Below are positions 1,913 through 55,482 of a stretch of DNA of 64,000 nt, piece after piece. The notes beneath the pieces are model-generated. The model was not told the origin of the DNA, did not search any database, and saw only the letters and a program-made list of their open reading frames with translations. Position numbers and translations under genes: made by a program. The stretch lies in assembly GCA_011109175.1 (NCBI GenBank), contig RDEW01000019.1:714145-778144 (forward strand), in the 5' to 3' direction. Numbering within the stretch: position 1 is the first letter of the stretch; every line of letters starts with the position of its first letter. Source of the DNA: Dicyema japonicum (Eukaryota; Dicyemida; Rhombozoa; Dicyemidae).

Positions 1913-3248
1913 CAGGGTTTTCCTATTTATTTTATGACTTGTCATAAAATTTGATAACTGTCAGAAAATTTAATAACTTTGTCAAAATGTTTAATAACTT
2001 TGTCAAATATTTATTGATCATTATTTATATTTATTGGATCATTAAGTCCCTATAAAAACAAATTTTAGCAAAAAATGAATTAAATGAATAGTTACAAAAA
2101 CTACTGTATCGAGGATAACCGAAAACTTATTATAAATAAATATGAAGCAGGGTTGGCTTATTCAAAAATAAGCGAAGACATCTGTATTAACTACCAGACA
2201 GTTGTTTCTATCGTCAAAAAATACAAATATAAAGGAAGTTTTGCTTTTATAATAAATAATTGTGGACGAAAAAAAACTTAATTCATCGGACATCTAATTT
2301 TTGACTAAAAGACTTGAAGAAGATGCTTCATTTATGCTAAAGAATTTACAAAATTCTTTATTTGATGTGCAAAGAAAAAATGTCTCGACAATGAATAGAC
2401 TCTATAGACATTTGGATATAGTTTAAGAAGATTCAATTTGTACCTATGGCGAGAAATTCTACAATAAATATGGAAGAAAGATATAGATATGCCAGAAACA
2501 TAATTGAAATTAATAATCAACGGCTTATTTTTATAAACGAAATGGGAGTCAATTGTTCGATGAGATCAAATTTGGAAGATCTATAAAAGGAGTTACTCCG
2601 AAAAAATGTATTAGAAATATAAAAGAAAAAAATTTCTCTATTTGTGCTGCTATTTCAGTGGACAGCCTTTTACATTACGAAATCAATTCCTCCCCTTATC
2701 GCGCAGAGACGTTCGTTGATTTTGTAATATAGCTTGATTATAAGCTTGAACGTGCAGGGAAAAAAGTATGGTTATATGTTATATTTAAGAAATGGTATTG
2801 ATATGTGACAATGCATCAATTCACATGGGCGATCAATTAAAAAATATTGTATTCGGAACTGGTATCCAATTAATTTTTAACGTGTATGAATTGTATTTTT
2901 TGCCTCTTATACTCCTCAACTTAATCCAATTGAAGAGTTTTTTTTCTGTTTGGAAAAATAACATTAAAAAGAAAAATTGTAGGAACTCTGAGGAATTAAT
3001 AAACGCAATCCGAAACATCGGAGAAATTCCATCAGATGTGTGCAATAATTTGTATAACCACATGCGGAGCTATTTAGTTAAAGCATTGGCTAATTTGAAG
3101 AATTTTAATTTACAGTTGTTTTTTTCGTGACCTTGACAAAGTTATTAAACATTTTGACAAAGTTATTAAAATTGGCTTTTTTTAATTTGACCCTTGACAT
3201 AGTTATTAAATTTTATGACAAAGTTATTAAATAAATAGGAAAACCCTG
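1913..3248 (+). mobile_element. Tc1/mariner-type DNA transposon, decayed
   Basis: Terminal inverted repeats begin cagggttttcctatttattt and end with its complement aaataggaaaaccctg. They are flanked by a TA dinucleotide on both sides (1911-1912 and 3249-3250), the target duplication of the Tc1/mariner superfamily. Each terminal region also carries several direct copies of ttaataactttgtcaa. The transposase is broken: a helix-turn-helix-like N-terminus at 2084-2281, a FINEMGVN block near 2530 where the first catalytic Asp appears as Asn, a DNASIH block near 2808, and a LNPIEEF block near 2925 in a shifted frame. Confidence 0.9.
2084..3130 (+). pseudogene. Tc1/mariner transposase remnant
   Basis: This is a DDE transposase that would excise and reinsert the surrounding 1.3-kb element. 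The N-terminal 65 residues (start 2084) contain a helix-turn-helix pattern (KISEDICINYQTVVSIVKKY), which in this family binds the terminal repeats. The middle contains DNASIH, the region of the second catalytic Asp, and the C-terminal NPIEE block would carry the third acidic residue. Stops at about 2278 and 2426, a frame change in the T-run near 2939, and Asn instead of Asp in FINEMG show that it is inactive. Assignment rests on motif order plus the TA-flanked terminal repeats. Confidence 0.8.
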
Positions 3249-9421: not shown

Positions 9422-12400
9422 TTAATTATGAATTTCGATGTCGATTGTATCGCTTTGCTGATCATTATCAATAGCTTCTATAGATTCTTCATCGATGGTT
9501 GAAGGTAAATTTGAACATACATTTATTGAATGAACGACATGGTCCGATTGATTTTCTTCATCGGAGGAAAAAAGGTTTAATTGAAATTTCAAAATTTACT
9601 TCGACATTCTCATTATAAGAAGACGTATTAAAATCATTTTCATCTATTGTAATCCCAGATGTTTGTTCAATTTGATTTTCAATTAATGTAGTCATGTTCA
9701 TATCAGAAATAAATTTATCTCCAGAGTTATTATATTGATTTGAATCACTGATATCGTCATCATAACATTTTTACCTTGTTTTTAGTGCATTATCGTTTGT
9801 TGTACTGTATTGTTGATTAAATCGCTCATTTGATTCTTGGCTGATGATGAAGGGTATAATTGATGGACAGTTAATATAAGAGTGATTTTTTTCAAATGTT
9901 GATGTTTCGATAAATTGTTCTTCACCAGTTTCTTCTAAATTTTCATAATAGCCTGATATTTTATGTGCATTAATTTCGTCAGTTTCATTATTTTGAAAAT
10001 CATTTAGTGTAGTCATTTTCAGATCAGAAATAACTTTATCTCCAGAGTTATTAAATTCATTTGAATCACTGATATCGTCATCATAACATTTTTACCTTGT
10101 TTTTAGTGCATTATCGTTTGTTGTACTGTATTGTTTAATAAATCGCTCATTAGATTCTTGGCTGATGATGAAGGGTATAATTGATGGACAGTTAATATAA
10201 GAGTGATTTTTTTCAAATGTTGATGTTTCGATAAATTGTTCTTCACCAGTTTCTTCTAAATTTTCATAATTGCCTGATATTTTATGTGCATTAATTTCGT
10301 CAGTTTCATTATTTTGAAAATCATTTAGTGTAGTCAATTTTCAGATCAGAAATAACTTTATCTCCAGAGTTATTATTTGATTTGAATCACTGATATCGTC
10401 ATCATAACATTTTTACCTTGTTTTAGTGCATTATCGTTTGTTGTACTGTATTGTTTAATAAATCGCTCATTAGATTCTTGGCTGATGATGAAGGGTATAA
10501 TTGATGGACAGTTAATATAAGAGTGATTTTTTTCAAATGTTGATGTTTCGATAAATTGTTCTTCACCAGTTTCTTCTAAATTCTCATAATTGCCTGATAT
10601 TTTATGTGCATTAATTTCGTCAGTTTCATTATTTTGAAAATCATTTAATGTAGTCATTTTCAGATCAGAAATAACTTTATCTCCAGAGTTATTAGTTTGA
10701 TTTGAATCACTGATATCGTCATCATAACATTTTTACCTTGTTTTTAGTGCATTATCGTTTGTTGTACTGTATTGTTTAATAAATCGCTCATTAGATTCTT
10801 GGCTGATGATGAAGGGTATAATTGATGGACAGTTAATATAAGAGTGATTTTTTTCAAATGTTGATGTTTCGATAAATTGTTCTTCACCAGTTTCTTCTAA
10901 ATTCTCATAATTGCCTGATATTTTATGTGCATTAATTTCGTCAGTTTCATTATTTTGAAAATCATTTATGTAGTCATTTTCAGATCAGAAATAACTTTAT
11001 CTCCAGAGTTATTAGTTTGATTTGAATCACTGATATCGTCATCATAACATTTTTACCTTGTTTTTAGTGCATTATCGTTTGTTGTACTGTATTGTTTAAT
11101 AAATCGCTCATTAGATTCTTGGCTGATGATGAAGGGTATAATTGATGGACAGTTAATATAAGAGTGATTTTTTTCAAATGTTGATGTTTCGATAAATTGT
11201 TCTTCACCAGTTTCTTCTAAATTCTCATAATTGCCTGATATTTTATGTGCATTAATTTCGTCAGTTTCATTATTTTGAAAATCATTTAATGTAGTCATTT
11301 TCAGATCAGAAATAACTTTATCTCCAGAGTTATTAGTTTGATTTGAATCACTGATATCGTCATCATAACATTTTTACCTTGTTTTTAGTGCATTATCGTT
11401 TGTTGTACTGTATTGTTTAATAAATCGCTCATTAGATTCTTGGCTGATGATGAAGGGTATAATTGATGGACAGTTAATATAAGAGTGATTTTTTTTCAAA
11501 TGTTGATGTTTCGATAAATTGTTCTTCACCAGTTTCTTCTAAATTCTCATAATTGCCTGATATTTTATGTGCATTAATTTCGTCAGTTTCATTATTTTGA
11601 AAATCATTTATGTAGTCATTTTCAGATCAGAAATAACTTTATCTCCAGAGTTATTAGTTTGATTTGAATCACTGATATCGTCATCATAACATTTTTACCT
11701 TGTTTTTAGTGCATTATCGTTTGTTGTACTGTATTGTTTAATAAATCGCTCATTAGATTCTTGGCTGATGATGAAGGGTATAATTGATGGACAGTTAATA
11801 TAAGAGTGATTTTTTTCAAATGTTGATGTTTCGATAAATTGTTCTTCACCAGTTTCTTCTAAATTCTCATAATTGCCTGATATTTTATGTGCATTAATTT
11901 CGTCAGTTTCATTATTTGAAAATCATTTAATGTAGTCATTTTCAGATCAGAAATAACTTTATCTCCAGAGTTATTAGTTTGATTTGAATCACTGATATCG
12001 TCATCATAACATTTTTACCTTGTTTTTAGTGCATTATCGTTTGTTGTACTGTATTGTTTAATAAATCGCTCATTAGATTCTTGGCTGATGATGAAGGGTA
12101 TAATTGATGGACAGTTAATATAAGAGTGATTTTTTTCAAATGTTGATGTTTCGATAAATTGTTCTTCACCAGTTTCTTCTAAATTCTCATAATTGCCTGA
12201 TATTTTATGTGCATTAATTTCGTCAGTTTCATTATTTGAAAATCATTTAGTGTAGTCATTTTCAGATCAGAAATAACTTTATCTCCAGAGTTATTAGTTT
12301 GATTTGAATCACTGATATCGTCATCATAACATTTTTACCTTGTTTTTAGTGCATTATCGTTTGTTGTACTGTATTGTTTAATAAATCGCTCATTAGATTC

Positions 12401-15400
12401 TTGGCTGATGATGAAGGGTATAATTGATGGACAGTTAATATAAGAGTGATTTTTTTCAAATGTTGATGTTTCGATAAATTGTTCTTCACCAGTTTCTTCT
12501 AAATTCTCATAATTGCCTGATATTTTATGTGCATTAATTTCGTCAGTTTCATTATTTGAAAATCATTTAGTGTAGTCATTTTCAGATCAGAAATAACTTT
12601 ATCTCCAGAGTTATTAGTTTGATTTGAATCACTGATATCGTCATCATAACATTTTTACCTTGTTTTTAGTGCATTATCGTTTGTTGTACTGTATTGTTTA
12701 ATAAATCGCTCATTAGATTCTTGGCTGATGATGAAGGGTATAATTGATGGACAGTTAATATAAGAGTGATTTTTTTCAAATGTTGATGTTTCGATAAATT
12801 GTTCTTCAACAGTTTCTTCTAAATTCTCATAATTGCCTGATATTTTATGTGCGTTATTTTCTTCAGTTTCTTTATTTTGAACTTCATTTAATGTAGTCAT
12901 GTTCATATCAGAAATAACTTTATCTCCAGATTTAATAGTTTCATTTGAATCACTGATATCGTCATCATAAAATTTTTACCTTGTTTTTATTTCATTTTCG
13001 CTTGTTCTACTGTATTGTTGATTAATTTGCTCATTTGATTCTTCGCTGATGTTAGAAGGTAGATTTGATGTAGAGCAAATATCTGAGGAATTTTTGACAA
13101 ATGTTGATGTTTCGATTGATAGTTCTTCAACTGTTTCTTCTACATTCTCAAAACAGACAGATGTTATATGTGCGTTATTTTCTTCAGTTTCTTTATTTTG
13201 AACTTCATTTAATGTAGTCATGTTCATATCAGAAATAACTTTATCTCCAGATTTATTAGTTTCATTTGAATCACTGATATCGTCATCATAAAATTTTTAC
13301 CTTGTTTTTATTTCATTTTCGCTTGTTGTACTGTATTGTTGATTAATTTGCTCATTTGATTCTTCGCTGATGTTGAAGGGTAGATTTGATGTAGAGCTAA
13401 TATCTGAGGAATTTTTGTCAAATGTTGATGTTTTCGATAAATTGTTCTTCACCAGTTTCTTCTAAATTCTCATAATGCCTGATATTTTATGACTGCGTTA
13501 TTTTCTTCAGTTTCTTTATTTTGAACTTCATTTAATGTAGTCATGTTCATATCAGAAATAACTTTATCTCCAGATTTATTAGTTTCATTTGAATCACTGA
13601 TATCGTCATCATAAAATTTTTACCTTGTTTTTATTTCATTTTCGCTTGTTGTACTGTATTGTTGATTAATTTGCTCATTTGATTCTTCGCTGATGTTAGA
13701 AGGTAGATTTGATGTAGAGCAAATATCTGAGGAATTTTTGTCAAATGTTGATGTTTCGATTGATAGTTCTTCAACTGTTTCTTCTACATTCTCATAATTG
13801 CCTGATATTTTATGTGCATTAATTTCGTCAGTTTCATTATTTTGAAAATCATTTAGTGTAGTCATTTTCAGATCAGAAATAACTTTATCTCCAGAGTTAT
13901 TAGTTTGATTTGAATCACTGATATCGTCATCATAAAATTTTTACCTTGTTTTTATTTCATTTTCGCTTGTTGTACTGTATTGTTGATTAATTTGCTCATT
14001 TGATTCTTCGCTGATGATGAAGGGTATAATTGATGGACAGTTAATATAAGAGTGATTTTTTTCAAATGTTGATGTTTCGATAAATTGTTCTTCACCAGTT
14101 TCTTCTAAATTCTCATAATTGCCTGATATTTTATGTGCATTAATTTCGTCAGTTTCATTATTTTTGAAAATCATTTAGTGTAGTCATTTTCAGATCAGAA
14201 ATAACTTTATTATAGTAAGTATTAGTATTGATTTGAATCACTGATATCGTCATCATAACATTTTTACCTTGTTTTTAGTGCATTATCGTTTGTTGTACTG
14301 TATTGTTTAATAAATCGCTCATTAGATTCTTGGCTGATGATGAAGGGTATAATTGATGGACAGTTAATATAGAGTGATTTTTTTCAAATGTTGATGTTTC
14401 GATAAATTGTTCTTCACCAGTTTCTTTCTAAATTCTCATAATTGCCTGATATTTTATGTGCATTAATTTCGTCAGTTTCATTATTTTTGAAAATCATTTA
14501 GTTGTAGTCATTTTCAGATCAGAAATAACTTTATCTCCAGAGTTATTAGTTTGATTTGAATCACTGATATCGTCATCATAACATTTTTACCTTGTTTTTA
14601 GTGCATTATCGTTTGTTGTACTGTATTGTTTAATAAATCGCTCATTAGATTCTTGGCTGATGATGAAGGGTATAATTGATGGACAGTTAATATAAGAGTG
14701 ATTTTTTTCAAATGTTGATGTTTCGATAAATTGTTCTTCACCAGTTTCTTCTAAATTCTCATAATTGCCTGATATTTTATGTGCATTAATTTCGTCAGTT
14801 TCATTATTTTGAAAATCATTTAGTGTAGTCATTTTCAGATCAGAAATAACTTTATCTCCAGAGTTATTAAATTCATTTGAATCACTGATATCGTCATCAT
14901 AACATTTTTACCTTGTTTTTAGTGCATTATCGTTTGTTGTACTGTATTGTTTAATAAATCGCTCATTAGATTCTTGGCTGATGATGAAGGGTATAATTGA
15001 TGGACAGTTAATATAAGAGTGATTTTTTTCAAATGTTGATGTTTCGATAAATTGTTCTTCACCAGTTTCTTCTAAATTCTCATAATTGCCTGATATTTTA
15101 TGTGCATTAATTTCGTCAGTTTCATTATTTTGAAAATCATTTAGTGTAGTCATTTTCAGATCAGAAAATAACTTTATCTCCAGAGTTATTAAATTCATTT
15201 GAATCACTGATATCGTCATCATAACATTTTTACCTTGTTTTTTAGTGCATTATCGTTTGTTGTACTGTATTGTTTAATAAATCGCTCATTAGATTCTTGG
15301 CTGATGATGAAGGGTATAATTGATGGACAGTTAATATAAGAGTGATTTTTTTCAAATGTTGATGTTTCGATAAATTGTTCTTCACCAGTTTCTTCTAAAT

Positions 15401-17222
15401 TTTCATAATAACCTGATATTTTATGTGCATTAATTTCGTCAGTTTCATTATTTTGAAAATCATTTAATGTAGTCATTTTCAGATCAGAAATAACTTTATC
15501 TCCAGAGTTATTAAATTCATTTGAATCACTGATATCGTCATCATAACATTTTTACTTGTTTTTAGTGCATTATCGTTGTGTTGTACTGTATTGTTTAATA
15601 AATCGCTCATTAGATTCTTGGCTGATGATGAAGGGTATAATTGATGGACAGTTAATATAAGAGTGATTTTTTTCAAATGTTGATGTTTCGATAAATTGTT
15701 CTTCACCAGTTTTCTTCTAAATTCTCATAATTGCCTGATATTTTTATGTGCATTAATTTCGTCAGTTTCATTATTTTGAAAATCATTTATGTAGTCATTT
15801 TCAGATCAGAAATAACTTTATCTCCAGAGTTATTAGTTTCATTTGAATCACTGATATCGTCATCATAACATTTTACCTTGTTTTTAGTGCATTATCGTTT
15901 GTTGTACTGTATTGTTTAATAAATCGCTCATTAGATTCTTGGCTGATGATGAAGGGTATAATTGATGGACAGTTAATATAAGAGTGATTTTTTTCAAATG
16001 TTGATGTTTCGATAAATTGTTCTTCACCAGTTTCTTCTAAATTCTCATAATTGCCTGATATTTTATGTGCATTAATTCGTCAGTTTCATTATTTTGAAAA
16101 TCATTTAGTGTAGTCATTTTCAGATCAGAAATAACTTTATCTCCAGAGTTATTAGTTTTTATTCGAATCACTCAAATATTCATATGATTGGACGGAATCC
16201 GAGGAATTTCCTGGAGCCATACTTTCGTTTGAGAAATAACTCTTTGAATTTTCAAATACATTTCCTGTACTTATTGTATTTTTCAAATATTCATTTGATT
16301 GTTCGAAATCTGAATAATTTTCTGGAAGCGAACTTATGCTTGATAATTGACTCTTCGAATTTTCAAATACATTTCCTTTACTCATAGCACCTTTCAAATA
16401 TTCACATGATTGGACTGAATCCGAGGAATTTCCTGAGGCAAACTTTCGTTTGAAAAAGAACTCTTTGATTTTTCAATTACATTTCCTGTACTCATTGGAC
16501 CTTTCAAATATTCATTTGATTGGGAAGAATTTCCTGGAGGCGAACTTATGCTTGATAAATGACTTTTTGAATTTTCAAATAAATTTCCTGTACTCATAGG
16601 ACCTTTCAAATATTCATATGATTGGACGGAATCCGAAGAATTTCCTGGAGGTAAACTTTCGTTTGAGAAATAACTCATTGAATTTTCAAATACATTTCCT
16701 GTACTCATAGGACCTTTCAAATATTCATATGATTGGACGGAATCCGAGGAATTTCCTGGAGGCAAACTTTCGTTTGAGAAATAACTCTTTGAATTTTCAG
16801 ATCATTTCCTGTATTCATTGGACCTTTCAAATATTCATTTGATTGGGCGAAATCTGAAGAATTTTCTGGAGGCGAACTTATGCTTGATAAATGACTCTTT
16901 GAATTTCCACATACATTTCCTGTAATCATAGCACCTTTCAAATATTCACATGATTGGACGGAATCCGAGGAATTTCCTGGAGGCAAACTTTCGTTTGAGA
17001 AAGAATTCTTTGAATTTTCAAATACATTTCCTGTATTCATTGGACCTTTCAAATATTCATTTGATTGGAAGAATTTCCTGGAGGCGAACTTATGCTTGAT
17101 AAATGACTTTTTGAATTTTCAAATACATTTCCTGTACTCATTGGACCTTTCAAATATTCATATGATTGAACGGAATCTGAAGAATTTCCTGGAGGCGAGC
17201 TTACGTTTGATAAATGACTCAT
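9422..17222 (-). CDS. Giant tandem-repeat protein gene with one micro-intron per repeat
   Basis: Candidate start ATG at 17222 (MSHLSNVSSPPGN); stop TAA at 9422-9424. Order from the 5' end: about ten 37-aa repeats with core SSDSVQSYEYLKG (17222-16160), then about 20 copies of a 98-aa repeat (16160-9775), then a short unique acidic tail ending DTIDIEIHN. Each 98-aa unit is a 294-nt exon bounded by a 27-nt intron that starts gtaaaaat and ends atatcag (for example 9748-9774, 10069-10095, 12632-12658, 12953-12979); the intron contains an in-frame stop, so splicing is required. If fully spliced, about 2400 residues, very rich in Asn, Ser, Thr and Glu. No signal peptide or membrane segment is visible at this start. 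Function unknown. One-base indels, mostly in homopolymers, break several units: either sequence error in a repeat or decay. Related genes lie at 20840-22458, 33340-33624 and 40697-41403. Confidence 0.7.
9775..16160 (-). repeat. Tandem array, about 20 x 321 bp
   Basis: The period is 321 bp (intron starts at 9748, 10069, 10390 ... 12632, 12953). Two sequence types exist. Type A has EKNHSYINCPSIIPFI. Type B has DKNSSDICSTSNLPSN and occupies roughly 12976-13990. Units near 13620-14174 are A/B mosaics, a signature of unequal exchange or gene conversion. Type A copies are near identical, including at intron and silent positions, so homogenisation is recent. Indel sites recur, for example loss of one T in ttttgaaaatc at about 11914, 12236 and 12557. 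Confidence 0.95.
16160..17222 (-). repeat. Tandem array, about ten 111-bp units (37 aa)
   Basis: Units alternate between a type with YFSNESLPPGNSSDSVQSYE and a type with HLSSISSPPENSSDFAQSNE, giving a higher-order period near 222 bp. The array joins the 98-aa repeats without an intron at about 16160 (EYLSDSNK), where one extra A in a run shifts the frame. Small deletions, for example near 16434 and 16800, also shift it. Confidence 0.85.
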
Positions 17223-17940
17223 TAAATATTGCTTCAGTTATTGAAACTATATTTTAAATTTTCTACAATTTATATTTGTAAAATTATTTTGTAATATTAT
17301 CTTTCAGTAATTTACTTAACGGGCTTTTGGTCTAGAAATAATAAAGTTATATTGTCATACTCCGAGATTGGAATTTGAATATCCATACTCCGAGGGAACT
17401 CGTTCGCAATCCACGCAGCAGGCTTCCTCAACTGACATTTTTTTAATTGTTAAAAAAAGAGTTATATCTATTCGATTAGTCATCGAGGTGTTCTAGTCCA
17501 TCCTTTGTTATCTTTGAAAAATATGTTTTTCATGACTTGATGTTTCTACATTTTCTTTAATAGATTAAATTTTAATTCTTTGTTTGTTTTACCTCATATA
17601 TTATCTTACTTATTGACATTTTATAACCACCTTCATAATTATAGCGTTTCCTGACAATTAACGTCACTTTCACGACCAATAAGGTCACTATATTTTTAAT
17701 GGTAAAAAACTTAAAAACAAAAAATAATTAACAAACAAAAATTAAGAAATTATTCCATGATAAAATTAAGAAGCATTTTCCTATAGTTTTTCATGTGCTG
17801 AATGCATTCTCAATCGGATTGGAAAATTGTGGGTAAAGCAGTAAATTTGGAACATGGTGGTTTTATTTCAATTAAATCGTTTATACCTGTATAATACGGG
17901 CATTATCAAAAATAAAGAGCCGGATTTCAATTTCCTCTTT
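17223..17940. promoter_or_regulatory. 5' flank of the giant repeat gene
   Basis: The stretch 17220-17310, read on the minus strand as tgaaagataatattacaaaa and onward to gaatttaaaatat-like sequence, resembles 33205-33285, which lies just upstream of the related gene at 33.3 kb. Shared upstream sequence means it was duplicated with the gene and may hold the promoter or a 5' untranslated exon. Nothing else was recognised up to 17940. Confidence 0.4.
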
Positions 17941-17947
17941 ATATCAA

Positions 17948-20389: not shown

Positions 20390-20960
20390 AGCCACAGAAT
20401 TATTTTAATAAACTTTAATTTTTAAATTATTTTTGTCAAATTTTTAAAAATTAAAATATTTTTAATAATTGATTACAATTCAAATTTTTAATTTTATGGG
20501 CTCTGTGAGTGATGAAAAATATCACGCGGCTTTACGTAGGGATTGGGTTGGGAGAGAACAGTTGAGCGTCATTGTGAGCTCAATATCGAGATTAGTTGAC
20601 ATCATGAATAAATTTGGTATAATTTAAACCCTTAAAAATATAGAGGCTTCCTCAATGTGCAGAATATCAGCACTTAAAGAAAAACTCTGCCAAATCGAAG
20701 CTAAACTTAGTTACATTGAAAATATTTTTTATAATTAAATGTTAGTTAAACAGGTTTTACTCCGTATTCTAGTAGAATAGTGTTTATAAAAGAGTAGTAA
20801 AGTAACCCAATCGCTAGTAGCCTAAAATAAAAAGTTGAATTACCACAAGAAAACTGTTTTCACGTAATTCGACTTTTTGCTTCCCTTTTTAGAAACTTTT
20901 TTCAAGTTTTGGTCAAACAAATCATTTTCGGTCAAAATCTTTCGAGTCAAAGATTTTTTC
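20390..20960. repeat. Inverted segmental duplication, left copy
   Basis: This segment is the reverse complement of about 41330-41850. It covers the BRICK1 gene, both its flanks and the last codons of the convergent neighbour. Non-coding flanks are conserved too (aaactttaatttttaaatta and ctaataaagtaac-type blocks), so it is a genomic duplication and not two ancient genes kept by selection alone; introns are kept, ruling out retroposition. Confidence 0.85.
20496..20738 (+). CDS. BRK1: BRICK1 (HSPC300), WAVE complex subunit, copy 1
   Basis: Two exons, 20496-20616 and 20644-20738, separated by a 27-nt intron (20617-20643, gtataat...atatag). The 71-aa product matches animal BRICK1 (about 75 aa) along its length: RRDWVGREQLSVIVSSISRL corresponds to the human HQDW-NREYIEIITSSIKK region, and CRISALKEKLCQIEAKLSYI to CRSRLATLNEKL-ALERRIEYI. 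The protein is almost all amphipathic helix and packs with SCAR/WAVE and ABI in the WAVE complex, which relays Rac signals to Arp2/3 and branched actin. It is intact. It faces the 20840-22458 gene tail to tail with about 100 bp between stops. An inverted, also intact, copy lies at 41504-41745. Confidence 0.93.
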
Positions 20961-22458
20961 TCGTTCAACAGATTAGTCTGTAGTTTATTTCTCCATTCAA
21001 GTTCGAAGATATTTTAGCGGTTTTAAGCTTGTATTCTGTTTTTTCTGGTATTTCATCATCCGAAATGATATCTTGGCAATAATTGTTTAAATTCCGATTT
21101 TCATTTCCCGTCCAATCGAAAATAATTTCTTGTAAATCATCATTCTGCTTAGTATTATAAGCGGATTTGTTAGAGTAATTAGCAGGTAATCCATTTGCCA
21201 TTGGATTTGTGTCAATTTTGACGTCACTTAGCATTTCTTTGCTTATAAAGTCATTTTCATTGCCCAGAATTCCATTTTTGGATTCTGAATATTTTTCTTT
21301 AGTGTTTTCCTCATCTTGAATATTAATTAAGTTGGTTTCCAAGGGAATGTCCTTTAATTGGTCATTATTTCCGGAATAATAGGAGGGGACCGAATCAATA
21401 CCATAATTATCAGTGGGTTCAGAGGAACTATTGAAGGCATCTACTTTTTCTGAGTAATTTTCTTCGTCGGTGCTATATTTTTCTGACCCTTGGAAATCTT
21501 TGAATGATTCCCAAATAGGTAAACTATCCGTCGAGTCCTGAATCAAAAAATCCTTAGTGTCTGGAAGTGTTCTTTCCAAAGCTGAGTCAGGAGTTATAGA
21601 GTTTTTGTGAAATTCTTGGGCTCTCTTATCAAATATAGACAGTTCAGAAACATTCACTCCTGATTCTTGGATGGATTCGCATAAATATTCAAAATATTCA
21701 ACGGAATTAGAAGAATATTTAACAGATCCACCTCTTTTAGGGTTTGGAGACGAGTTCTTGTTGCAAAATAGCGTATCGTCGTCGGAAAACAAATCCATTG
21801 ACGCATATTTCATGTCTGTTTTCAACGAAGCTGAGTTAAATCCAAATTTCTTGGGTTTGTATGAGGAATATATATCGTCAGGTTCTATCTGATCCAATTC
21901 ATCGAAATCTATTTTTCCTTTCATGTCTTTTATTTTCTCATTTTTCTCGGCAAACGGCTTTAAATCAGTTTTTTGATCGTTCTGAATCGATTTGTCAAAA
22001 ATGTTCAAATCCAAATTAACTTTCCATGTTTTCTAGGTCATCAAGTTTCTAAATAAACCCCGAGATTGGAAAGAAATATTATATTGTTCCATGAAGTGCT
22101 CAGTCCTTCTATAAGTCGCAATATTGACTCCCAAGTGTCGCTGTCCTCTGGTAAATTAATCTTTTTGGCTTGAAAATAGAGTTGGTTAAGTTTATTAGGA
22201 TAATCCGCTGTAAGCAATTTAATATCCTGAGATTAAGTATTTCTGAATACTGTGAGTGAAAGCGACTGCCTTTTCTCAGCCAGAACCTCCATTTTTGCTA
22301 GTCTTTTTCGAAGCTGTTCGTATGCAATCAGAAATTGGTTCAACGATCGTCTGCACGAGGCGTCTGATATTTCTTTGAACTATGGAATTTGAAATAAAAA
22401 AATAGCTGTTACAGAGCTTATTAGATCGCTTAGTTGATTGTGCTTGACTTGAATGCTG
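20840..22458 (-). CDS. Unrecognised acidic Ser/Asn-rich protein with N-terminal coiled coil
   Basis: Proposed exons on the minus strand: from about 22458 to 22413, 22379-22251, 22226-22059 and 22032 to the end, with introns of 33, 24 and 26 nt that all keep frame. No ATG was found in the first exon, so a further 5' exon is likely. The first 120 residues look helical (LIAYEQLRKRLAKMEVLAEK); the rest is acidic and rich in Ser, Asp and Asn, with a KYSSNSVEYFEYL motif like the repeat core of the giant array gene. The main frame stops at 20965 (NYRLIC). A conserved tail, KKSNYVKTVFLW, shared with the 41403 paralogue, lies in another frame ending at 20840. It would be reached by a one-base shift or a 41-nt GC-AG intron. 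Function unknown. Convergent with BRICK1. Confidence 0.65.
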
Positions 22459-33204: not shown

Positions 33205-33624
33205 TGTGAAAGATAATATTACAAAAATAATTCTATAAATATATATTTTAGAGAATTTAAAATATCGAAAGTATAGAAAAACAAAAACCTAGAAAAACAC
33301 CATCGAAAGGCTGAAATGAGAAAAAATAAAAGGAACGAATATTTGGCTCAGGAAATTCCTTAGATTCCGTCCAATCATATGAATTTTTGAAAGGTCCAAT
33401 GAGTAAAGGAAATATTTATGACAATTCATTGAATCAGTTCTCAGACGAAAGTTTACATTCAGAAATTCATCAAATCAAAATGAAGAAACATCAGGGAAAA
33501 CTGAAGATGAAGACACTACTTTTCCTCGCAAAAAGCCAATCTGGAGAAAATTCTACAAATAAAGAAAATTCTACTTACATTAATAAAATCTTCACAAAAC
33601 AGAACATAACATTTTTATGGTGAT
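33205..33624 (+). pseudogene. Paralogue of the giant repeat gene, short member
   Basis: The coding part begins near 33350 with SGNSLDSVQSYEFLKGPMSK, a single unit of the 37-aa repeat, then NIYDNSLNQFSDESL. A frame to 33624 ends INKIFTKQNITFLW, like the KILTENDL ... VFLW tail at 20840. An alternative frame at about 33470-33550 (NQNEETSGKTEDED) matches NQNGEESGKTKNG in the 41-kb paralogue, so the gene is frameshifted or has an unrecognised intron. The upstream 33205-33285 sequence resembles 17220-17310. No BRICK1 partner is present here. Confidence 0.5.
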
Positions 33625-34900: not shown

Positions 34901-37900
34901 TTAATCAACAACCTTCCTCGCCTGCCTGTTCGCCAGCCTCCTCAGGCAGGTTCGATTCTGGTTGCTGAAACAACTCCGAGAGCGCTTGTCTAATTGAACC
35001 CTCTGCCCATATGGCATCTCAGGGCTCTGCCTCCTATACTCCAGTGTCAGGCTCTCTAGGGTCCGCTTTAACACAGTGGACTGTAGATAGGCCTGGAGCT
35101 TCCTATCTACCCCCAACTGCTTCAGATAACCCTTGTGGTACTTTGTTGCAATTCCTTCCCACGTCATTACTATAGGAATAACGAGGACCTTGCAACCAAG
35201 CATCTGCCCCATCTCGTTTGCAAGAAAGTCATACTTCCTTTTTTTCTCCACCTCCACAGTCTGCAAACGGTCTTGAGACGTGATGCCAACCTCTATGATA
35301 AGGACTTGGCCAGACTCCTTATCGTGTACCACAATGTCCGGTTTATTGTGCTTGACTAGCACCGAGGTACGGATAACACTGTCTACCTTAATTTGGACCC
35401 TGGTGTTCTCTACTACAGATTGCACCTTATGAGTCCGCAACTTTCTGGTGTGGCGAATACCATACTTATTGCATAGTAGAAGATGAAGACTCCTTACTAC
35501 CTCGTTGTGCCTCCACACATAGTCGTGGCAGAGCATGGATCCACATCGAGTGGCTAAATGATCAACCGACATGCTCCTTGACTTACAGTGGGGACATGTA
35601 TTTGTTGATCGACCCCAAAAAATATTGCGGTCTTGCATATACGTGTACAACGCCTCCGATCGAGGTGAGTTGTCACCGTATTTTAGCCATATTGTCGACG
35701 ACTTAAGGTCGACATGTGGGTTGTCCAATGCTCTGAAGAGGACCTTATGAAGGCTTTTTAAGTTGATCTTTTCCATCAAATTATTATATTGTAATTCGAT
35801 CAACGCCTTCACATTTACTAGCCCACCATCATCAACACCATACTTAGCAGACAAAAAAGGTCTGATAGTGCCTAGGTGGGTTGCCCGTGTTTTCTCGGTC
35901 GTTATTATGGCGTGCTTCCTAGCAGACACACTTGACCCAGCTATCAGGGTGTCGTGCATTCGCATTAGGATACGCTCACTTAGTTGGACTACTCCACACA
36001 GTCCACGGCCGAATTTATCACGGGGTAAATATAGTCTCTCCTTATTGGCTGCCAACACATGGACATGGTTCTCTCTGAGTACTCCACGGATCATAACATC
36101 CATCTCATCATACTCTTTGGGCTCAAACTCCACAACACCTATGTAGTAGTTTAGCAGCGAGACAGCATACTCATTTAATGCTAGGAACAAATTCCTTGCA
36201 TTTAGAGACGTCTTACACAATAACGCTGCTCTTTTACGGATGCCTTCAGTAATTTGTCGCTTTGTCTCAGGCATTATAAGGGACTTTGGAGATTCGGTAA
36301 CACCCAGATACTTATATCCTTCGTGTTCCTCTAGGACTCTTACTAACTCGCTACATACTTGCGTGTTAGTCGCAGACTTTGAATAATTCAAATCTAGCCC
36401 TATACTCTCAAAGAATTCCCTGGCACAGACCCCCATGGAGTAGAGCTCCTCGGCTGTTCGAGCATACATCTTCAGTCATCGATAAAAAGAAGGTGATTTG
36501 TACTGAAACAGACCCCTTCACAATGAACTGGTATTTGCTCAAACCGGTCATTGAGGCGGCGACTCAATGGCTCCAAACAGAGAACAAAGAGTAGCGGAGA
36601 CATGCTATCCCCCTGAAGGATCCCCCTCTTGAGTTTTACCTCGCCTATCCGGTGCCTATTATAGTTCAGATGAATACTCCACCTATTCATCACAGCCACT
36701 ACAAAGCTGATGAACCACACAGGCATACACAGACTGTGTAGGCACTCGACAAGGTAAGAATGATCAACTGAATCGTAAGCCTTCTTCACATCCACCCACA
36801 TAGACAAAAGTGAGTTTCCGTGAGACACAGAAAGGCATTTGTTGATCAAAGCCTGCTCTTTTGCCCCCTGACAATTTCGCACAGTTCCCAACTGATTCTC
36901 GGAGAGAATCCCATTTGCGTCTACAAAGCTCCTGACCTCATTAGCCACCAATTTGGTCATCAGCTTATACAGGGTTGTCCAGCTTTGGGATCAAATAAGT
37001 TGTCCCTGTGCATGCCCAATCAGGAATCGTTTCCGGGTTAGTGATGCTTTTCTGTAATACACGACACATAGACTAGTGCAATGAAGTGCATCTTTTGATA
37101 AAGAAATAATAAACTTTATCGACCCCGGTGGTTTTCCAATCAGTGAGATGTCTCACTACCGCCTCAAATTTCTTGCAAAAATCGAAAATTCCTCAAGATT
37201 CCGCCAAGAAAGATGCGGCGCTGTACGGGACATTCCACGCTGATCCTCTGCGTGGTTTAGCATCACACATACTACTCATGTGGAAAGCATGTCCGCGTCC
37301 TGCTGGGAACATACACTATGGCCATTTTCGTGTAGGCGATGGAAAAACAATCTGCGATTAAACTCAAGCAGATTATTTTCTCTCCTTTCATACACCGATT
37401 TTCATATGTATAGATTTTCATCTTATACACCATTACTGCCCCCTCTAACTCCACATTTGCCCTCCTCAACTCTTTGAGGTCCCATTTGGGAACACGGAGT
37501 TTACTAATTAGCCTCTTTACTATAAGCGGTGCTTTTCCTCTAACCCCTCTCGCCACACTACTTATGTGCCCCTCCAGTGCTTCCAGCTCAGTCTGTCTCC
37601 AAACAATCTTGGCACAGATCTGCTCCCTCCATTTACTGGTGGTCTGGGCTTGTCCGTCAATTCCTCATAGGTGATCTGTGCTGCATACAGCACTAGGGAG
37701 ATGTCACCCAATGACCCTACTGGCTTAGCCTCCACCGCATAAGCCACAGCCTTATTGATGCAGGTTAACACTACACCGTTAACCTTACAATGAGGAATCT
37801 TGCGGGTAAATCTACGGTCCTCAAGTGGGACATCTGCCGCTGCAGCGAGATTCCGCGCAAAAACCTCATAAACATGCTTGAGCTGCAACGTATCACAGCT

Positions 37901-38263: not shown

Positions 38264-38612
38264 GTTTTTTATACTTAATGCTAATATATTGAATATCTTA
38301 GATTAAGTAATAAATTATTTATATAAAAATAATAGGGCTTGAAATGGCGGTGATCAGGGAACACCTTTGCAATCCTGGCCTCTTACTAAAAGACTTAGTT
38401 TTTTACCTTTTTCAATGAATTTATTCGATTTTAACAAATTTACATAATTTATCAATTACTAATCTCCGGGCGTCATGAAAAAGCTCAATCACCCAGTAAG
38501 ACGTGGTCTTGTAGATTTGAAAAGAGAAACCAAATTTTAGTCCTAATTTATATCGATTTAACGTAGTTTCGTAACGTTGCTAATATTTAAGATAAGTTCC
38601 CGTTCACGTGTG

Positions 38613-38620
38613 ATTTGCAT
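38613..38620. promoter_or_regulatory. Octamer motif just before the POU gene start
   Basis: The sequence atttgcat (complement of atgcaaat), the classic POU-binding octamer, lies 6 bp before the ATG. It would fit autoregulation, but the same octamer occurs elsewhere in this AT-rich window (for example 23723-23730 and 30129-30136), so chance is likely. Confidence 0.25.
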
Positions 38621-38626
38621 TGTTCA

Positions 38627-39298
38627 ATGAGTAATCAGAATAATTGGCTACAGAACGCTGATATTTTTTCTGTAGATAACGTTCAGAATTCAAGTAATGT
38701 CGACCGAAATTACAACTCTGTGTGCAATCTCAATTCAAGTGAACATAATTCCCATCGAGGAGTCGACTATTTCGCCAGTAATGATTCAGTCTTGAGTTAC
38801 TCCCCTCAACCAGATGGATCACTATTACAGGCTGACAGTCGACGTGAAGTAGAAAATCCACAGTTGGACGTTTATTATTTCGCCAATTTCTTCAAGCAAG
38901 AACGTGTCAAATTTGGTTATTCGCAAGCAGACATCTCCTTGCTAATGAAAAAGAATGGGCACCCCATTAGTCAAACGACGGTTGGTCGCTTTGAGACTGG
39001 TAAACTGTCTTTTATGAGTATGCAGAAATTTAAAAATATTTTTGCTACTATTTTGGGACTAATAATAAGGGACCTTCCCTCTAAATTTGAGATCATGTCG
39101 TCCACGGATCAGACTGTCAAGAAAAAAACGTTTTTTAACAAAGATGCCAAAGAAACGTTCGAATATATGTTTAATAAAAATATTTATCCGACCAAATCAG
39201 AGATTCAAGAAGTTGCAAAAACCTTCGATTTGCCGAAGTCTAGTGTAAGGTGTCGGTTCAATAACAGAAGGCAGAAAATGCCTAAATTTCCTAAATGA
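38627..39298 (+). CDS. Divergent POU-homeobox transcription factor
   Basis: A 223-codon uninterrupted frame from ATG 38627. The first 80 residues are Asn/Ser-rich without motifs. Residues about 80-148 form a POU-specific domain: FFKQERVKFGYSQADISLLM and GHPISQTTVGRFETGKLSF match the F-QRRIKLGFTQADV and SQTTICRFE-LQLS core, including the DNA-contacting QTT. After a 17-residue linker, residues about 165-219 form a homeodomain ending SSVRCRFNNRRQK. Its recognition helix has Arg where almost every homeodomain has the buried Trp48 (VWFxN), a single TGG-to-CGG change; Asn51 and Arg53 remain. POU proteins bind octamer-like DNA in the nucleus through both domains. Upstream exons are possible. The gene is flanked by retroelements on both sides. 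The POU class cannot be set by eye. Confidence 0.9.
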   Translation: MSNQNNWLQNADIFSVDNVQNSSNVDRNYNSVCNLNSSEHNSHRGVDYFASNDSVLSYSPQPDGSLLQADSRREVENPQLDVYYFANFFKQERVKFGYSQADISLLMKKNGHPISQTTVGRFETGKLSFMSMQKFKNIFATILGLIIRDLPSKFEIMSSTDQTVKKKTFFNKDAKETFEYMFNKNIYPTKSEIQEVAKTFDLPKSSVRCRFNNRRQKMPKFPK

Positions 39299-40696: not shown

Positions 40697-41403
40697 ATGG
40701 AAACAAATATTGGTAACGGAAACAGCAAAGTTACTATTATTTATAACTTAGATAACACAAAAATGTTCGTTTTCTAAAGATTCCTTAGATTCTGTCCAAT
40801 CATATGAATATTTGAAATGCCCTATTAAAAATGAAAATGGTTTCGAAATTACTATTTCCAACGAAAAAGTACAAGATTTAGATGAAGCTTCAATATGTCC
40901 TTCCTCCGCCGAATATTCAATTCCAGGAGATTCATCAGATTCCGTCCGATCATATGATTTTATGAAATGTTCTAAATCAAGTGGAAATCTACAAACATTA
41001 ATAATCAAAATGGAGAAGAATCAGGAAAAACTAAAAATGGGAGCGCTTTTGAAGCCACTATTTCTTATGAGAAAGTCAAAGATTTGGATAAAAAATCAGT
41101 AATCACTTCAAATTGTGTAGAAAATCCTACAGACGTTGTTAATTCAACAAAAAATAATTCAATCGATGTGTCTCAGAATTCATATTTTTTTAAAAGCTGC
41201 CAAAAATCTGAAACGTCTATCAATGATGAAGGACTTAACATAGAAAATGAACCTTCTTCAACTAACGTGGAAACTCCTGCAAACATTGTTAGTCCTTCAA
41301 TAAAGATTTTAACCAAAAATGATATGTATAGTCAAACCTCGACTAAAATTTCAAAAAAAAGAAAAATAAAATCGAATTACGTGAAAAAAGTTTTCTGGTG
41401 GTG
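40697..41403 (+). CDS. Paralogue of the 20840-22458 gene, beside BRICK1 copy 2
   Basis: Start ATG 40697; exon 1 (11 codons) ends at 40729; a 22-nt intron (40730-40751) leads into CSFSKDSLDSVQSYEYLKC. A second copy of the motif follows (SSDSVRSYDFMKC), and two matching blocks EITISNEKVQDLD and ATISYEKVKDLD show an internal duplication. Between these the frame changes; a 35-nt GT-AG intron from about 40982 (gtggaaat...aatggag) would restore it. The end KIKSNYVKKVFWW matches the alternative-frame tail at 20840. The protein is acidic and Ser/Asn-rich, about 210-220 aa, lacking the coiled-coil N-terminus of the 20-kb paralogue. Its stop is 100 bp from BRICK1 copy 2, convergent. Function unknown. 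Confidence 0.6.
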
Positions 41404-41850
41404 ATAAACTTTAATTTTAGGCTACTAGTGATTGGTTTACTTTACTACACCTTTATAAACACTAGTCTATTAGAATATGGAGTAAAACCTGTTTAACTAA
41501 CATTTAATTATAAAAAATGTTTTCAACGTAACTAAGTTTAGCTTCGATTTGACAGAGTTTTTCTTTAAGTGCTGATATTTTGTACATTGAGGAAGCCTCT
41601 ATATTTTAAGGGTTTAAATTATACCACATTTATTCATGATGTCAACTAATCTCGATATTGAGCTCACAATGACGCTCAGTTGTTCTCTCCCAACCCAATC
41701 TCTGCGTAAAGCCGCATGGTATTTTTCATCATTCACAGAGCCCATAAGATCAAATATTTGAATTGTAATCAAATACTAATAATATTTTAATTTTTAAAAT
41801 ATTCGACAAAAATAATTTAAAAATTAAAGTTTATTAAAATAATTCTGTGT
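41330..41850. repeat. Inverted segmental duplication, right copy
   Basis: Reverse complement of about 20390-20960 (see there). Similarity starts within the last codons of the convergent gene and runs through BRICK1 to about 41850 (aaagtttattaaaataattc). Confidence 0.85.
41504..41745 (-). CDS. BRK1: BRICK1 (HSPC300), copy 2
   Basis: Minus-strand exons 41745-41625 and 41598-41504 with a 26-nt intron (41599-41624). The 71-aa product differs from copy 1 at only a few residues: Ser5 to Asn, Phe40 to Cys, Cys-Arg to Tyr-Lys just after the intron, and Ile to Val near the end. It has no stops or frame changes. The intron is kept at the same place and nearly the same sequence, so the copy arose by DNA duplication. 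The Phe-to-Cys and Cys-Arg-to-Tyr-Lys changes fall at the hinge between the two helices, so the copy may be drifting. Whether both are expressed cannot be told from sequence. Confidence 0.9.
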
Positions 41851-42789: not shown

Positions 42790-43985
42790 TTTTATTTTAT
42801 TTATTTAACCCAAGACCACGGTAAAACAAAACTAATTATCACGTGATCCCGATACATTCTATCAGAGACCTCATCTTTGCCCCTTGTTTTTCCTTCGAGC
42901 CCGCGCATGAACGTACAAGACGGCTGCCTGAATTTTCAGGCCCAACTTCCCGTGATCTGAAGTCTAGTCTCATAAGGGCCTCCAGAGGCGTAGGTCCGGG
43001 TCGATGATCTTCACAAATCCAACGCTCCGTTACTCTGTAAGCCCTCTTTGGCATTTCCTCAATTTTCCTCATATTTGTCCAAGATATGGACGGACCCCAC
43101 GAGGCGCATGCATATGAGAAACATGGCTCGATGTATTGTTTGTATACGTTCATCAAGACTGGGTGAGTACCACTCTTCCATATTCCCGATAAACTTTTCA
43201 ATACGTTCAGTTTCTTCTCGCATTTCAATAGAATGTTTTCTACGTGTGGTGTCAAACAGAGATGCATATCAATTGTCACACCCAAGATCCTTTGACATCT
43301 GTTGAAAGGGATGCCGACCTTGTTTAACTTCAAGGTGACTGTCTTCCTTCCCAATCTTTTGTCCGAGGTAAATAGTGACGTAGACGACTTCTCTGCATTC
43401 ACCACGAGCCGGTTTTTCATTATCCAGGCATTAAGCCTGTCCAGGTTAATTTGTATTCTTTCTTGGTCTTCTGGATGGCCTGATCTCGCGAAGCCAACAC
43501 AATATCATCCGCATAAGAAAGTAGAACATCATTATCAGATTCAAGACTCGGGATATCAGCCAGAAAGAGGTTAAACAGAGCAGGGATAAAGGCGATCCTT
43601 GAGGGACTCCGTTTGGGAAAAGCCGTGAGATTGATTTCAGATTTCCGAGGCAAACACGTCCCCTTCGTCCACTTAGGAAGTTAATAATCCAAAGCTTTAG
43701 CTTCCCTGGGATCTCCGATTGAAATATTTTTCTCGATAGAATCTTCCTCGAGACTGAGTCAAAAGCCTTATTTATGTTGATCGAGCAGAGCACTGTTTTA
43801 AAGTGTCTCGGCTTGGTTGTGAATCCGACTCGAATGAATTTGGTCAATGTTTGCAAGTATGTAGACGTGGATCTCTCATTTTTGAATCCAAGTCTTTTCT
43901 GGTAAAAATTCTTTTATTCTCCCGAGCACAAGCCTCTCCAGAATTTTTGACATATGGCGATACTTGCAATTTTAGCAAATTTTAA
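42790..43985 (-). mobile_element. LINE family A (Jockey/I-like), 5'-truncated copy
   Basis: On the minus strand: CSININKAFDSVSRKIL (palm start, 43780), FLSGRRGRVCLGN, then FPNGVPQGS, then in the next frame LSYADDIVLASRDQAI with the YADD catalytic box (about 43510), then SSTSLFTSDKRLGR, ILGVTIDMHL, KQYIEPCFSYACASWGPSIS and a terminal part ending ECIGIT at 42839. The reverse transcriptase is split over at least three frames. The UTR with ttatttaacccaagaccacgg marks the 3' end near 42800. It matches 24880-25492 and 20080-20345. Confidence 0.9.
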
Positions 43986-54315: not shown

Positions 54316-55482
54316 ATGGAAGATTATTTTGTTGCAATGGCTTCTTACAAGGGTTTTGTGAAAGATTGCGTTGAATATCAAACTTTAAAAGATGCTTTGC
54401 ATGATAAATTTCCCGAAAATCTTCCGAGGCACCGAAAATATAGGCTTGTAAAGAAGATAGAGAATTTTTCTATTATCAATGACAGGTATTGTAAATTTTC
54501 AATAATTTTAGACTGTATCTTAAATCAACTGATCCCAAGTTAGTCATATCCCTGGATAATGAAACCGAAATGGAGCATGTTGCGAAATCGTTGCACGAGT
54601 TTTCACACGGAGGAGTCAATAAAATTGAGTATGAATGTCGACAAAGATACTTCACTGTAAAGAATGAGATTATCAGAAAAGTCATTCGAAATTGTGAAGT
54701 CTGCAAATTTTCGCGTCCTTTAAAAGTTCGTGATTTTTTTAATAGATTGGAGATATAAATCACCATGTGTTTGCTTCTTCTCCAAATGAACGTTTTCAGG
54801 TAGATCTAATAGACCTGAAAAAATTTTCAACATTAAATGAAAATTTCAAATGGATTTTAACGGTCATTGACATATATAGTAGGCTGGTTTTTTTTTAATT
54901 TATAGATTCGCTTTTGTACGACCACTCTATAATAAGTCTGGTAAAGAAGTATGTGAAAACTTAAGATCTTTGTTCCGCCTGAATGGGCCATGTAAATTTC
55001 TTCAGTCGGACAATGGTTCTGAATTTAAAAATCAAGAAATAACAAAATTTTGCGAAGATTTTAACATTAAGCAAATTCACGGAAGGACTAACAATCCACG
55101 AGCACAAGGAATTGTCGAAAGATTTAATCAGACGATCACGAGGAAGTTGTCAAAAATTCTGGATAACAGTGAAAAAAAGTGGTTTGATAAATTAGAAAGT
55201 GCTGTCTACAGTTACAACATATCGGTCCATTCATTTTCTAACGAAAGTCCTTTCGAAAGATATCGAGGAATTAAGGGAATAAATTCAAAAATTAATGGTT
55301 ATACTTATATCACATTATGACTTAGATAATTTAAGTGATGAGTGTGCGATTCCAGAACAAATTAACGATTTGGTTAATTGTTCGACTCCAGAATCTATTG
55401 AAAATTCACGTAGTTTGATTTAAAAAATTTATATCTAGATAATTCCCAGTCAGATAATTTATGTCGAATAGGTTCGGGCTAA
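54316..55482 (+). CDS. Intron-containing integrase (KRBA2/Ginger type), intact
   Basis: Exons 54316-54485, 54512-54725, 54746-54882, 54906-55297, 55326-55412 and 55439-55482. The five introns are 26, 20, 23, 28 and 26 nt. All are GT-AG except the third, which reads best as GC-AG. Together they give an uninterrupted 347-aa protein. An N-terminal helical part ends YRLVKKIENFSIINDR. Next is an H2C2 zinc-binding domain (HEFSHGG ... CEVCKFSRPLK). The catalytic core follows, with FQVDLIDLK (first Asp), LQSDNGSEFKN (second Asp) and AQGIVERFNQT (Glu), the D-D-E triad that cuts and joins DNA ends. It is followed by a short acidic tail. This integrase type moves the surrounding TGT...ACA element. Introns within it argue against a retroelement origin of this copy. 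Confidence 0.88.

Follow-up and report, generated by a model that had tools for sequence, protein, structure and literature searches.

Genes built from tandem arrays of exons are known elsewhere. In Tetrahymena, thousands of genes for leucine-rich repeat (LRR) proteins carry arrays of 90-bp exons separated by phase-2 introns with length peaks such as 122, 232 and 257 bp, according to the parts of the report covered here (PMC6564038). The spider Flag and Argiope MaSp2 silk genes, as described in excerpts of a second report (PMC1885213), iterate exons and introns whose successive copies are near-identical, the repeats being homogenised by intragenic recombination. In human LPA, the kringle IV-2 unit, described as a 5.6-kb coding unit with its own exons and introns, is present in 1-40 units per allele, and its copy number alters protein size. 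For dicyemids, the published median intron of Dicyema sp. is 27 bp (PMC6543705), and the D. japonicum genome is estimated at 65 Mb and assembled at 67.5 Mb with a GC content of 36.7% (PMC6543705, PMC6736024); the portions of these two papers covered here describe no comparable exon array.

Here we analysed a window of 64,000 nucleotides from D. japonicum (genome 64.67 Mb; window GC 0.343; POU plus homeodomain ORF present). Genome size and introns both point to a dicyemid. Trichinella was rejected as the host: a thymidylate synthase exon scored highest against entry 1rts (rat), at 188.5 bits, and reached 152.6 bits against 5by6 (Trichinella). The window contains no Rfam family at the gathering threshold and no tRNA, and pieces of transposons lie elsewhere in it. 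The array gene, its 5' flank and further family members within the window have the following layout.

9422..17222, minus strand: predicted coding region, from the ATG at 17222 to the TAA at 9424-9422
within 9422..17222, minus strand: exon 1 of 1346 nt, 19 internal exons of 293-296 nt and a terminal exon of 326 nt
17230..17345, minus strand: 5' flank element, common to the paralogue and, in part, to two other family members
16172..17222, minus strand: 37-aa coding tandem array in exon 1, period 111 bp, about 9.7 copies (TRF)
15877..16170, minus strand: first module, directly continuous with the 37-aa array, no intron lying between them
9748..15876, minus strand: 20 phase-2 introns GTAAAAAT[G/T]TTATGATGACGATATCAG and 19 internal module exons
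12659..14240, minus strand: type-B module (12980-13273) with flanking A/B mosaic modules, mid-array, defined by 51 informative sites
9422..9747, minus strand: terminal exon, a homologue of the modules and of the paralogue terminal exon (78.7% over 310 nt)
20749..22032, minus strand: family member with a 355-codon open stretch, then a predicted 22-nt intron (20822-20843) and a hydrophobic tail LLAIGLLYYSFINTILLEYGVKPV
33345..33458, plus strand: family member fragment with the motif SLDSVQSYEFLKGPM
40697..41493, plus strand: family member with an ATG, a predicted 22-nt intron (40730-40751) and two SDSV(Q/R)SY(E/D)-like motifs

A sequence-only reading had described the whole of 9422..17222 as a giant gene of about 20 identical exon-plus-microintron modules. 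Its end points are exactly the TAA and the ATG of a minus-strand coding region of nominally ~2,420 codons, and the modular plan is borne out: 20 GT...CAG introns lie between 21 homologous modules of ~98 aa, and TRF finds a 321-bp tandem array of 20.2 copies with 96% matches. That array spans only 9679-16172, whereas 16172-17222 is the different, 37-aa coding array, with a typical translated unit of KGPMSTGNVFENSK..SSDSVQSYEYL and a reading frame that, as assembled, switches among all three. The unit lengths first reported, 321 bp with a 294-nt exon, hold for eight of 19 spacings and eight of 19 internal exons; the other 11 spacings are 320, 322 or 323, and the other 11 exons are off by 1-2 nt. 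The introns are 27 nt long in 19 of 20 copies and 26 nt in one, running from the first at 15851-15876 (26 nt) to the last at 9748-9774 (27 nt), and are preceded by AAG in 19 copies and CAA in one. As that reading had it, the in-frame stop is intronic: the sole stop in the 107-codon period of an intact module is a TAA within the intron. In an endless 321-bp array, 61 of 5000 dinucleotide shuffles also attained an open run of 106 codons. The proposed coincidence of repeat and exon boundaries applies at the 5' edge of the array, which is the first base of a module (16170), but A/B switch points sit within exons. The modules are symmetric (phase 2), so the frame would indeed be kept whenever a module is gained, lost or skipped.

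The units are not identical, contrary to the first description. They fall into two types, A and B, plus mosaics: modules 6, 7, 8 and 10 are A/B mosaics and module 19 is partly mosaic. Of the 20 non-terminal modules, six have intact 106-codon frames as assembled; each of the other 14 differs from an intact module by one or more frame-changing indels of 1-2 nt, by an indel pair or by an indel at the intron edge. The frame of the terminal exon is also broken; a candidate 44-nt GT-AG intron there was rejected as the cause of the frame change, its phases being mismatched as judged by eye. In the 14 A-type modules compared with their reference (modules 6-10, B or mosaic, were left out), 19 distinct 1-nt indels stand against 12 distinct substitutions, and 14 of 23 indel events fall in runs of 3 or more, whereas two duplicated flanks show 16 gap openings to 59 mismatches (Fisher p 0.0002 for the indel share). 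Because indels outnumber substitutions in the A-type modules, the frame breaks look more like consensus error than decay, and we infer that most are assembly errors; slippage in single-base runs could also produce a high indel share. Two HSP70 genes of the same genome, the only conserved genes in which frame breaks were scored, likewise change frame where two model-match halves overlap, and at two of their three breaks the sequence would formally allow a GT-AG join of 20 or 23 nt, at the cost of model-matched residues. Some indels are common to several modules, at position 75 in three adjacent modules and at position 62 in three modules, and these resemble what inherited mutations would give.

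The introns inferred in conserved genes of this genome measure 21-27 nt (38 introns, median 23, placed manually at frame joins). A length of 27 nt is therefore ordinary here, and it equals the Dicyema sp. median cited above. Ranked by splice-site score among the 38 host introns, under a model built from these hand-picked introns, the array intron is 14th and the paralogue intron 25th. Of 4000 random points in the window, 3% lie inside a GT-AG pair of 21, 24 or 27 nt with as high a score. Together with the paralogue, the host size class and these scores suggest that the array introns would be spliced.

The tandem paralogue lies ~10 kb off, at about C94:711.8-713.6 kb, and consists of a 37-aa array, one module, one 27-nt intron and a terminal module, a layout that looks ancestral. 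Nineteen of the 20 array junctions align separately (141-143 nt) to the paralogue's exon-end/27-nt/exon-start with 78-87% identity and 0-3 gap openings, and the 20th aligns inside a longer piece; in BLAST, the four junctions with a B-type intron are closest, at 86-87% versus 78-82% at the 15 others. The paralogue module has 97 codons without a stop, although its own 37-aa array and terminal exon also carry frame breaks. In simulations (n=20,000), stop-free runs amounted to 0.7% at 116 random changes and 7.5% at 50 changes, the A-B number. The single module of the paralogue agrees with the earlier suggestion of a family evolving by exon gain. The plus-strand member at 40697..41493 also has a predicted 20-nt intron (41401-41420) followed by a hydrophobic tail, with one frame change left over in between. 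The family thus far appears small and fast-evolving, and known only from this contig. The 5' flank element at 17230..17345 is a probable promoter or leader.

The product, if made, would be an acidic, Asn/Glu/Ser-rich protein of ~2,400 aa starting MSHLSN..., and is probably disordered. A module structure prediction from seven sequences gave a mean pLDDT of 50.6 and a pTM of 0.11. No Pfam family matched one module at E up to 0.1, an LRR domain included; the modules, 37-aa array and family members tried gave no Pfam family above cut-off; no solved structure matched one module at E up to 1. In a protein library, neither a spliced two-module query nor the paralogue's 143-codon stretch found a homologue at E up to 10, a weak null because the same library showed no close relative for CCT-delta either, its top match among the 120 listed being 51% identical, with no dicyemid among the entries that carried a name and many entries carrying none. 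The earlier view that no described protein has this unit agrees with these searches, but the architecture itself has been described (PMC6564038, PMC1885213). Like the Tetrahymena arrays, as far as they are covered here, the locus combines tandem exons of 3n length (exactly 294 nt in the eight noted above) with phase-2 introns and homogeneity at the DNA level; it differs in being the one array gene found, in an animal, with 294-nt rather than 90-nt exons that lack a known domain, and 27-nt introns. It shares near-identical successive introns with the silk genes, but those encode silk proteins, and the translated modules here have no GGX or poly-Ala motif. As in LPA, the coding unit includes intron sequence, but in place of a 5.6-kb kringle the unit is 321 bp, one exon plus one microintron, with no fold found. 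What sets this array apart from exon arrays elsewhere is its unusually tiny introns.

Overall, we consider it probable that the locus is an amplified, living family member with spliced 27-nt introns, grown from a two-module ancestor by unequal exchange. Unequal exchange within a two-module gene is the most likely route to the array. In the ancestor, exon 1 would have combined the 37-aa array with a single 98-aa module, followed by a phase-2 intron of 27 nt and a terminal exon, itself a diverged module. A hybrid exon carrying its intron would have come from unequal exchange of the terminal module with the one in exon 1. As each period contains just one symmetric exon plus one microintron, later rounds of unequal exchange would have copied the two as a unit, until the gene had 20 introns and 21 modules. 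With the 27-nt introns taken out, the mRNA would be open over ~2,400 codons, and the product may be a cytoplasmic repeat protein that varies in length by whole modules.

The alternatives overlap, and their likelihoods do not sum to one with that of the living family member. The gene may be dead: a minisatellite of coding origin, no longer functional and drifting, whose frameshifts are real. This would account for the indels in 14 of 20 non-terminal modules, some of them common to more than one module, and would fit the presence of transposon fragments in other parts of the window. Purifying selection on the protein is not apparent. The dN/dS ratio is 1.38 for A versus B; in comparisons with the paralogue it is 0.92 and 0.63, values that decay would yield as well, and the A-B changes are even across codon positions (14, 21 and 15). 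Yet the near-identical modules have more indels than substitutions, unlike the duplicated flanks, the HSP70 genes show frame changes as well, and in-frame stops are absent from intact modules of type A, of type B and of the paralogue; we regard a dead gene as unlikely. The assembler might also have expanded, collapsed or scrambled the array. Unit lengths of 320-323 and the many indels in single-base runs point to poor polishing, and modules 11-18, each differing from the reference by 0-2 substitutions, would be difficult to position with short reads; but diagnostic A/B sites tell modules apart both mid-array and at the array edges, and the module junction is independently present in the paralogue, which leaves an assembler product highly improbable.

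The 27 nt could instead be old coding sequence in which a founder unit changed TAT to TAA and the nonsense unit was then copied 20 times. In the paralogue they are read through without a stop (RYEFYEYHIS) and could be coding; 27 is a multiple of 3, and the differences from the paralogue there number five changes for type B and six for type A. We think this improbable, as GT and CAG are kept in all 20 copies and in the paralogue, the length falls in the host intron range, and the splice-site scores fit host introns, with the 3% chance of so good a match given above. The sequence-only reading had also raised a surface or secreted protein, and a length-variable antigen would suit the fast evolution, the 4-5 Asn-x-Ser/Thr sites per module and the hydrophobic C-terminal tails of two sister genes. 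Neither the array gene nor the tandem paralogue shows a hydrophobic signal or membrane segment by inspection and hydropathy (highest 19-residue value in module A, 0.33; 5' end taken from the DNA only), and a surface or secreted antigen is very unlikely.

Our tentative proposal, to which we give somewhat less than an even chance, is that this living gene amplifies exon and intron together as an in-frame minisatellite, with all 20 near-identical microintrons removed and protein length set in 98-aa modules. If so, the range of isoforms may vary further by frame-neutral skipping of modules, in a genome whose introns have become only a few codons long. Such arrays can pass for pseudogenes in error-prone assemblies. 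If transcribed, the array would offer, through its neighbouring paralogue, a view of how a two-module gene became one of 21 modules. It would also be a natural test of the spliceosome on 20 near-identical 27-nt introns at ~294-nt spacing, exposing the order, skipping and fidelity of their removal.

The predicted minus-strand array gene at 9422..17222 opens with a 37-aa repeat array, which is followed by ~98-aa modules parted by 27-nt introns. The limits given in the sequence-only reading fall exactly on an ATG (17222) and a TAA (9424-9422), but the 20 equal units that it extended across the whole of 9422-17222 were not found: 21 modules and 20 introns were counted. The intron motif occurs 20 times, being 27 nt long in 19 occurrences and 26 nt in one, and is preceded by AAG in 19 and by CAA in one. 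The predicted coding total is 7262 nt (~2,420 codons), in a genome assembly of 64.67 Mb and 191 contigs, of which the window covers 714145-778144 on contig C94.

Predicted features of the array gene
9679-16172, module frame on minus strand: 321-bp array (Tandem Repeats Finder, 20.2 copies, 96% matches)
16172-17227, directly 5' of the 321-bp array on the minus strand: 111-bp array (Tandem Repeats Finder)
Exon 1, minus strand: 1346 nt, made up of the 37-aa array plus module 1
Internal exons, minus strand: n = 19, 293-296 nt, exactly 294 nt in 8
Terminal exon, minus strand: 326 nt

From host conserved genes for thymidylate synthase, CCT subunits and HSP70 (12 loci inspected, some of which yielded no introns), 38 GT-AG introns were obtained from frame joins, with lengths of 21-27 nt and a median of 23. 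Excerpts of published accounts give an intron median of 27 bp for Dicyema sp., with about two thirds <30 bp (PMC6543705), and, for D. japonicum, a mean intron of 38 bp, an estimated genome of 65 Mb, an assembled 67.5 Mb and a GC content of 36.7% (PMC6736024); the GC of the window is 0.343. With its POU plus homeodomain ORF and its 14-3-3 exon, the window is most likely animal DNA, for which a dicyemid host fits best; no named dicyemid was seen among the matches listed for CCT-delta. Given the host lengths and the Dicyema sp. median, a 27-nt intron is therefore ordinary in this genome, although it sits at the long end of the 38-intron sample. The array intron has a splice-site score of 7.84 (rank 14 of 38 leave-one-out scores) under a model that is somewhat circular, because its training introns were picked by hand where the family-model gap agreed with intron length. 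Of 4000 random points, 3% lay within a GT-AG pair (21, 24 or 27 nt) with a score of 7.84 or more. At the equivalent place in a tandem paralogue, the intron GTATGAATTTTATGAATACCATATCAG scores 9.79 (rank 25 of 38). The frame of the paralogue runs without a stop through these 27 nt, and they may thus reflect a formerly coding state rather than an intron from the outset; in the intact module frame of the array gene, the sole stop in the 107-codon period is a TAA within the intron.

The paralogue was recovered by searching the genome at the protein level with a single mosaic module as query (a mixture of the two module sequence classes, types A and B). Beyond the array, this search found one diverged module at 712124-712417 of the same contig (C94), with an E-value of 0.0013. 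In the reverse query with the paralogue module, the top array module gave 1.9e-7. The two genes share a strand and lie ~10 kb apart, and the duplication takes in both flanks (90.3% identity across 308 nt, 87.2% across 500 nt).

Features of the paralogue, in coordinates of L013, a stretch of C94
L013:6803-8561 (C94:711.8-713.6 kb): tandem paralogue beyond the window, made up of a 37-aa array, a single module, a single 27-nt intron and a terminal exon
L013:7401-8561: paralogue 37-aa array, 10.6 copies

Nineteen of the 20 array junctions each give a separate alignment to the paralogue junction, and the remaining one lies inside a longer piece; identity is 86-87% for the four with a B-type intron and 78-82% for the other 15. 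From these alignments, the start of the array unit resembles the terminal exon of the paralogue and its end the exon-1 module. Unequal exchange between two such homologous modules would yield a hybrid unit of this kind. At 51 A/B-diagnostic sites, modules 6, 7, 8 and 10 are mosaic and module 19 is partly so, with switch points inside exons. In-register exchange always keeps frame because the period holds one symmetric phase-2 exon. Near its 3' end, the paralogue has about 100 extra nt that part two pieces matching the array gene. Upstream of both genes is a duplicated stretch (window 17452-17947 and L013:8667-9145) with a broken translation, which may be DDE transposase-like.

Whether the module frame could be open by chance was assessed in two ways. 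When dinucleotides were shuffled 5000 times, 61 of the sequences gave an open run of 106 codons in an endless single-unit array. The paralogue module is open over 97 codons despite 116 sites differing from type B over 93 aligned codons, and only 0.7% of 20,000 simulated sequences stayed open under that many random changes; this argues against chance more strongly than the shuffle test. The corresponding argument from A versus B divergence is weak, as 7.5% of simulated sequences stayed open with 50 changes.

The protein cannot be made from the array gene as assembled. The full 106-codon stop-to-stop frame of the intact module is present in 6 of the 20 non-terminal modules; by alignment, four lack any exon indel, and modules 7 and 9 have only a one-base deletion and an insertion five positions apart, which leave the frame open. 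The frame is also broken in the 37-aa array and in the terminal exon. When 14 A-type modules were compared with module 15 (modules 6-10 excluded as B or mosaic), there were 23 indel events, 19 of them distinct, all of single bases and 14 in runs of three or more, against only 12 distinct substitutions. Between the array gene and the paralogue, the ratios of gap openings to mismatches are 16 to 59 in the duplicated flanks, 6 to 46 in the terminal exons and 15 to 135 in the 37-aa arrays; the indel/substitution ratio of the array modules differs from that of the flanks (Fisher p = 0.0002) and of the 37-aa arrays (p = 3e-9). Decay usually gives more substitutions than indels, the opposite of what is seen in the array, and most of its single-base indels are therefore probably consensus errors. 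Against this stand a deletion at position 75 common to three adjacent modules and one at position 62 common to three modules. Elsewhere in this assembly, two HSP70 genes change frame, at three places in total, where their two halves overlap in model coordinates; at two of these, a GT-AG join of 20 or 23 nt could formally be drawn, although it would delete model-matched residues. An HSP70-like gene at C45:604217-608476 has frame changes, from either assembly indel errors or a decaying copy.

Modules A and B have predicted net charges of -10 and -14 in 97 residues, and a charge-hydropathy plot places both on its disordered side; structure prediction from a shallow alignment of seven sequences gave a pLDDT of 50.6. 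The dN/dS is 1.38 for A-B, and 0.92 (A) and 0.63 (B) versus the paralogue, so that purifying selection on residues is not clearly apparent. Such values would fit fast-evolving disordered, diversifying or dead proteins alike.

Three further members with the SDSVQSYEYL motif or a common hydrophobic tail lie at 20749-22032, 33345-33458 and 40697-41493. Part of the 5' flank is common to four family members. The tail, which follows a 20-22 nt intron, ends two of them (that at 20749-22032 and that at 41 kb), and no such tail was seen in either the array gene or the tandem paralogue. Neither the open stretch nor the tail of the 20749-22032 member has a Pfam match. All places found in the genome searches are on C94, among the best-scored candidates; these searches score the best candidates only, and further family places may therefore exist. 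The neighbourhood is rich in transposons, and a 14-3-3 exon is also present within the window.

Other features in the window
20749-22032, minus strand: family member, 355-codon acidic open stretch with SVEYFEYL motif, then 22-nt intron and hydrophobic tail
38591-39298, plus strand: POU and homeodomain ORF, matches to both domains
61548-62019: tandem array, period ~97 bp, 4-5 copies
36472-36990, 43446-43913, 54883-55320, 2789-3130: transposon pieces, namely reverse transcriptase (two), integrase and DDE transposase (below cut-off)

In the titles and abstract openings of the papers listed for dicyemid tandem repeats and for repeated exons, no microintron array in a dicyemid appears, and excerpts of a human tandem-repeat paper (PMC2812944) describe no such array. 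According to excerpts or abstract openings of the respective accounts, Tetrahymena LRR genes likewise carry uniform exons in tandem, parted by introns in phase 2 (PMC6564038), spider silk genes likewise have iterated exons with nearly identical introns (PMC1885213), and human LPA likewise repeats a coding unit 1-40 times. Exon arrays as such are already known, and this one differs from these systems in the tiny intron, the single-exon period and the host.
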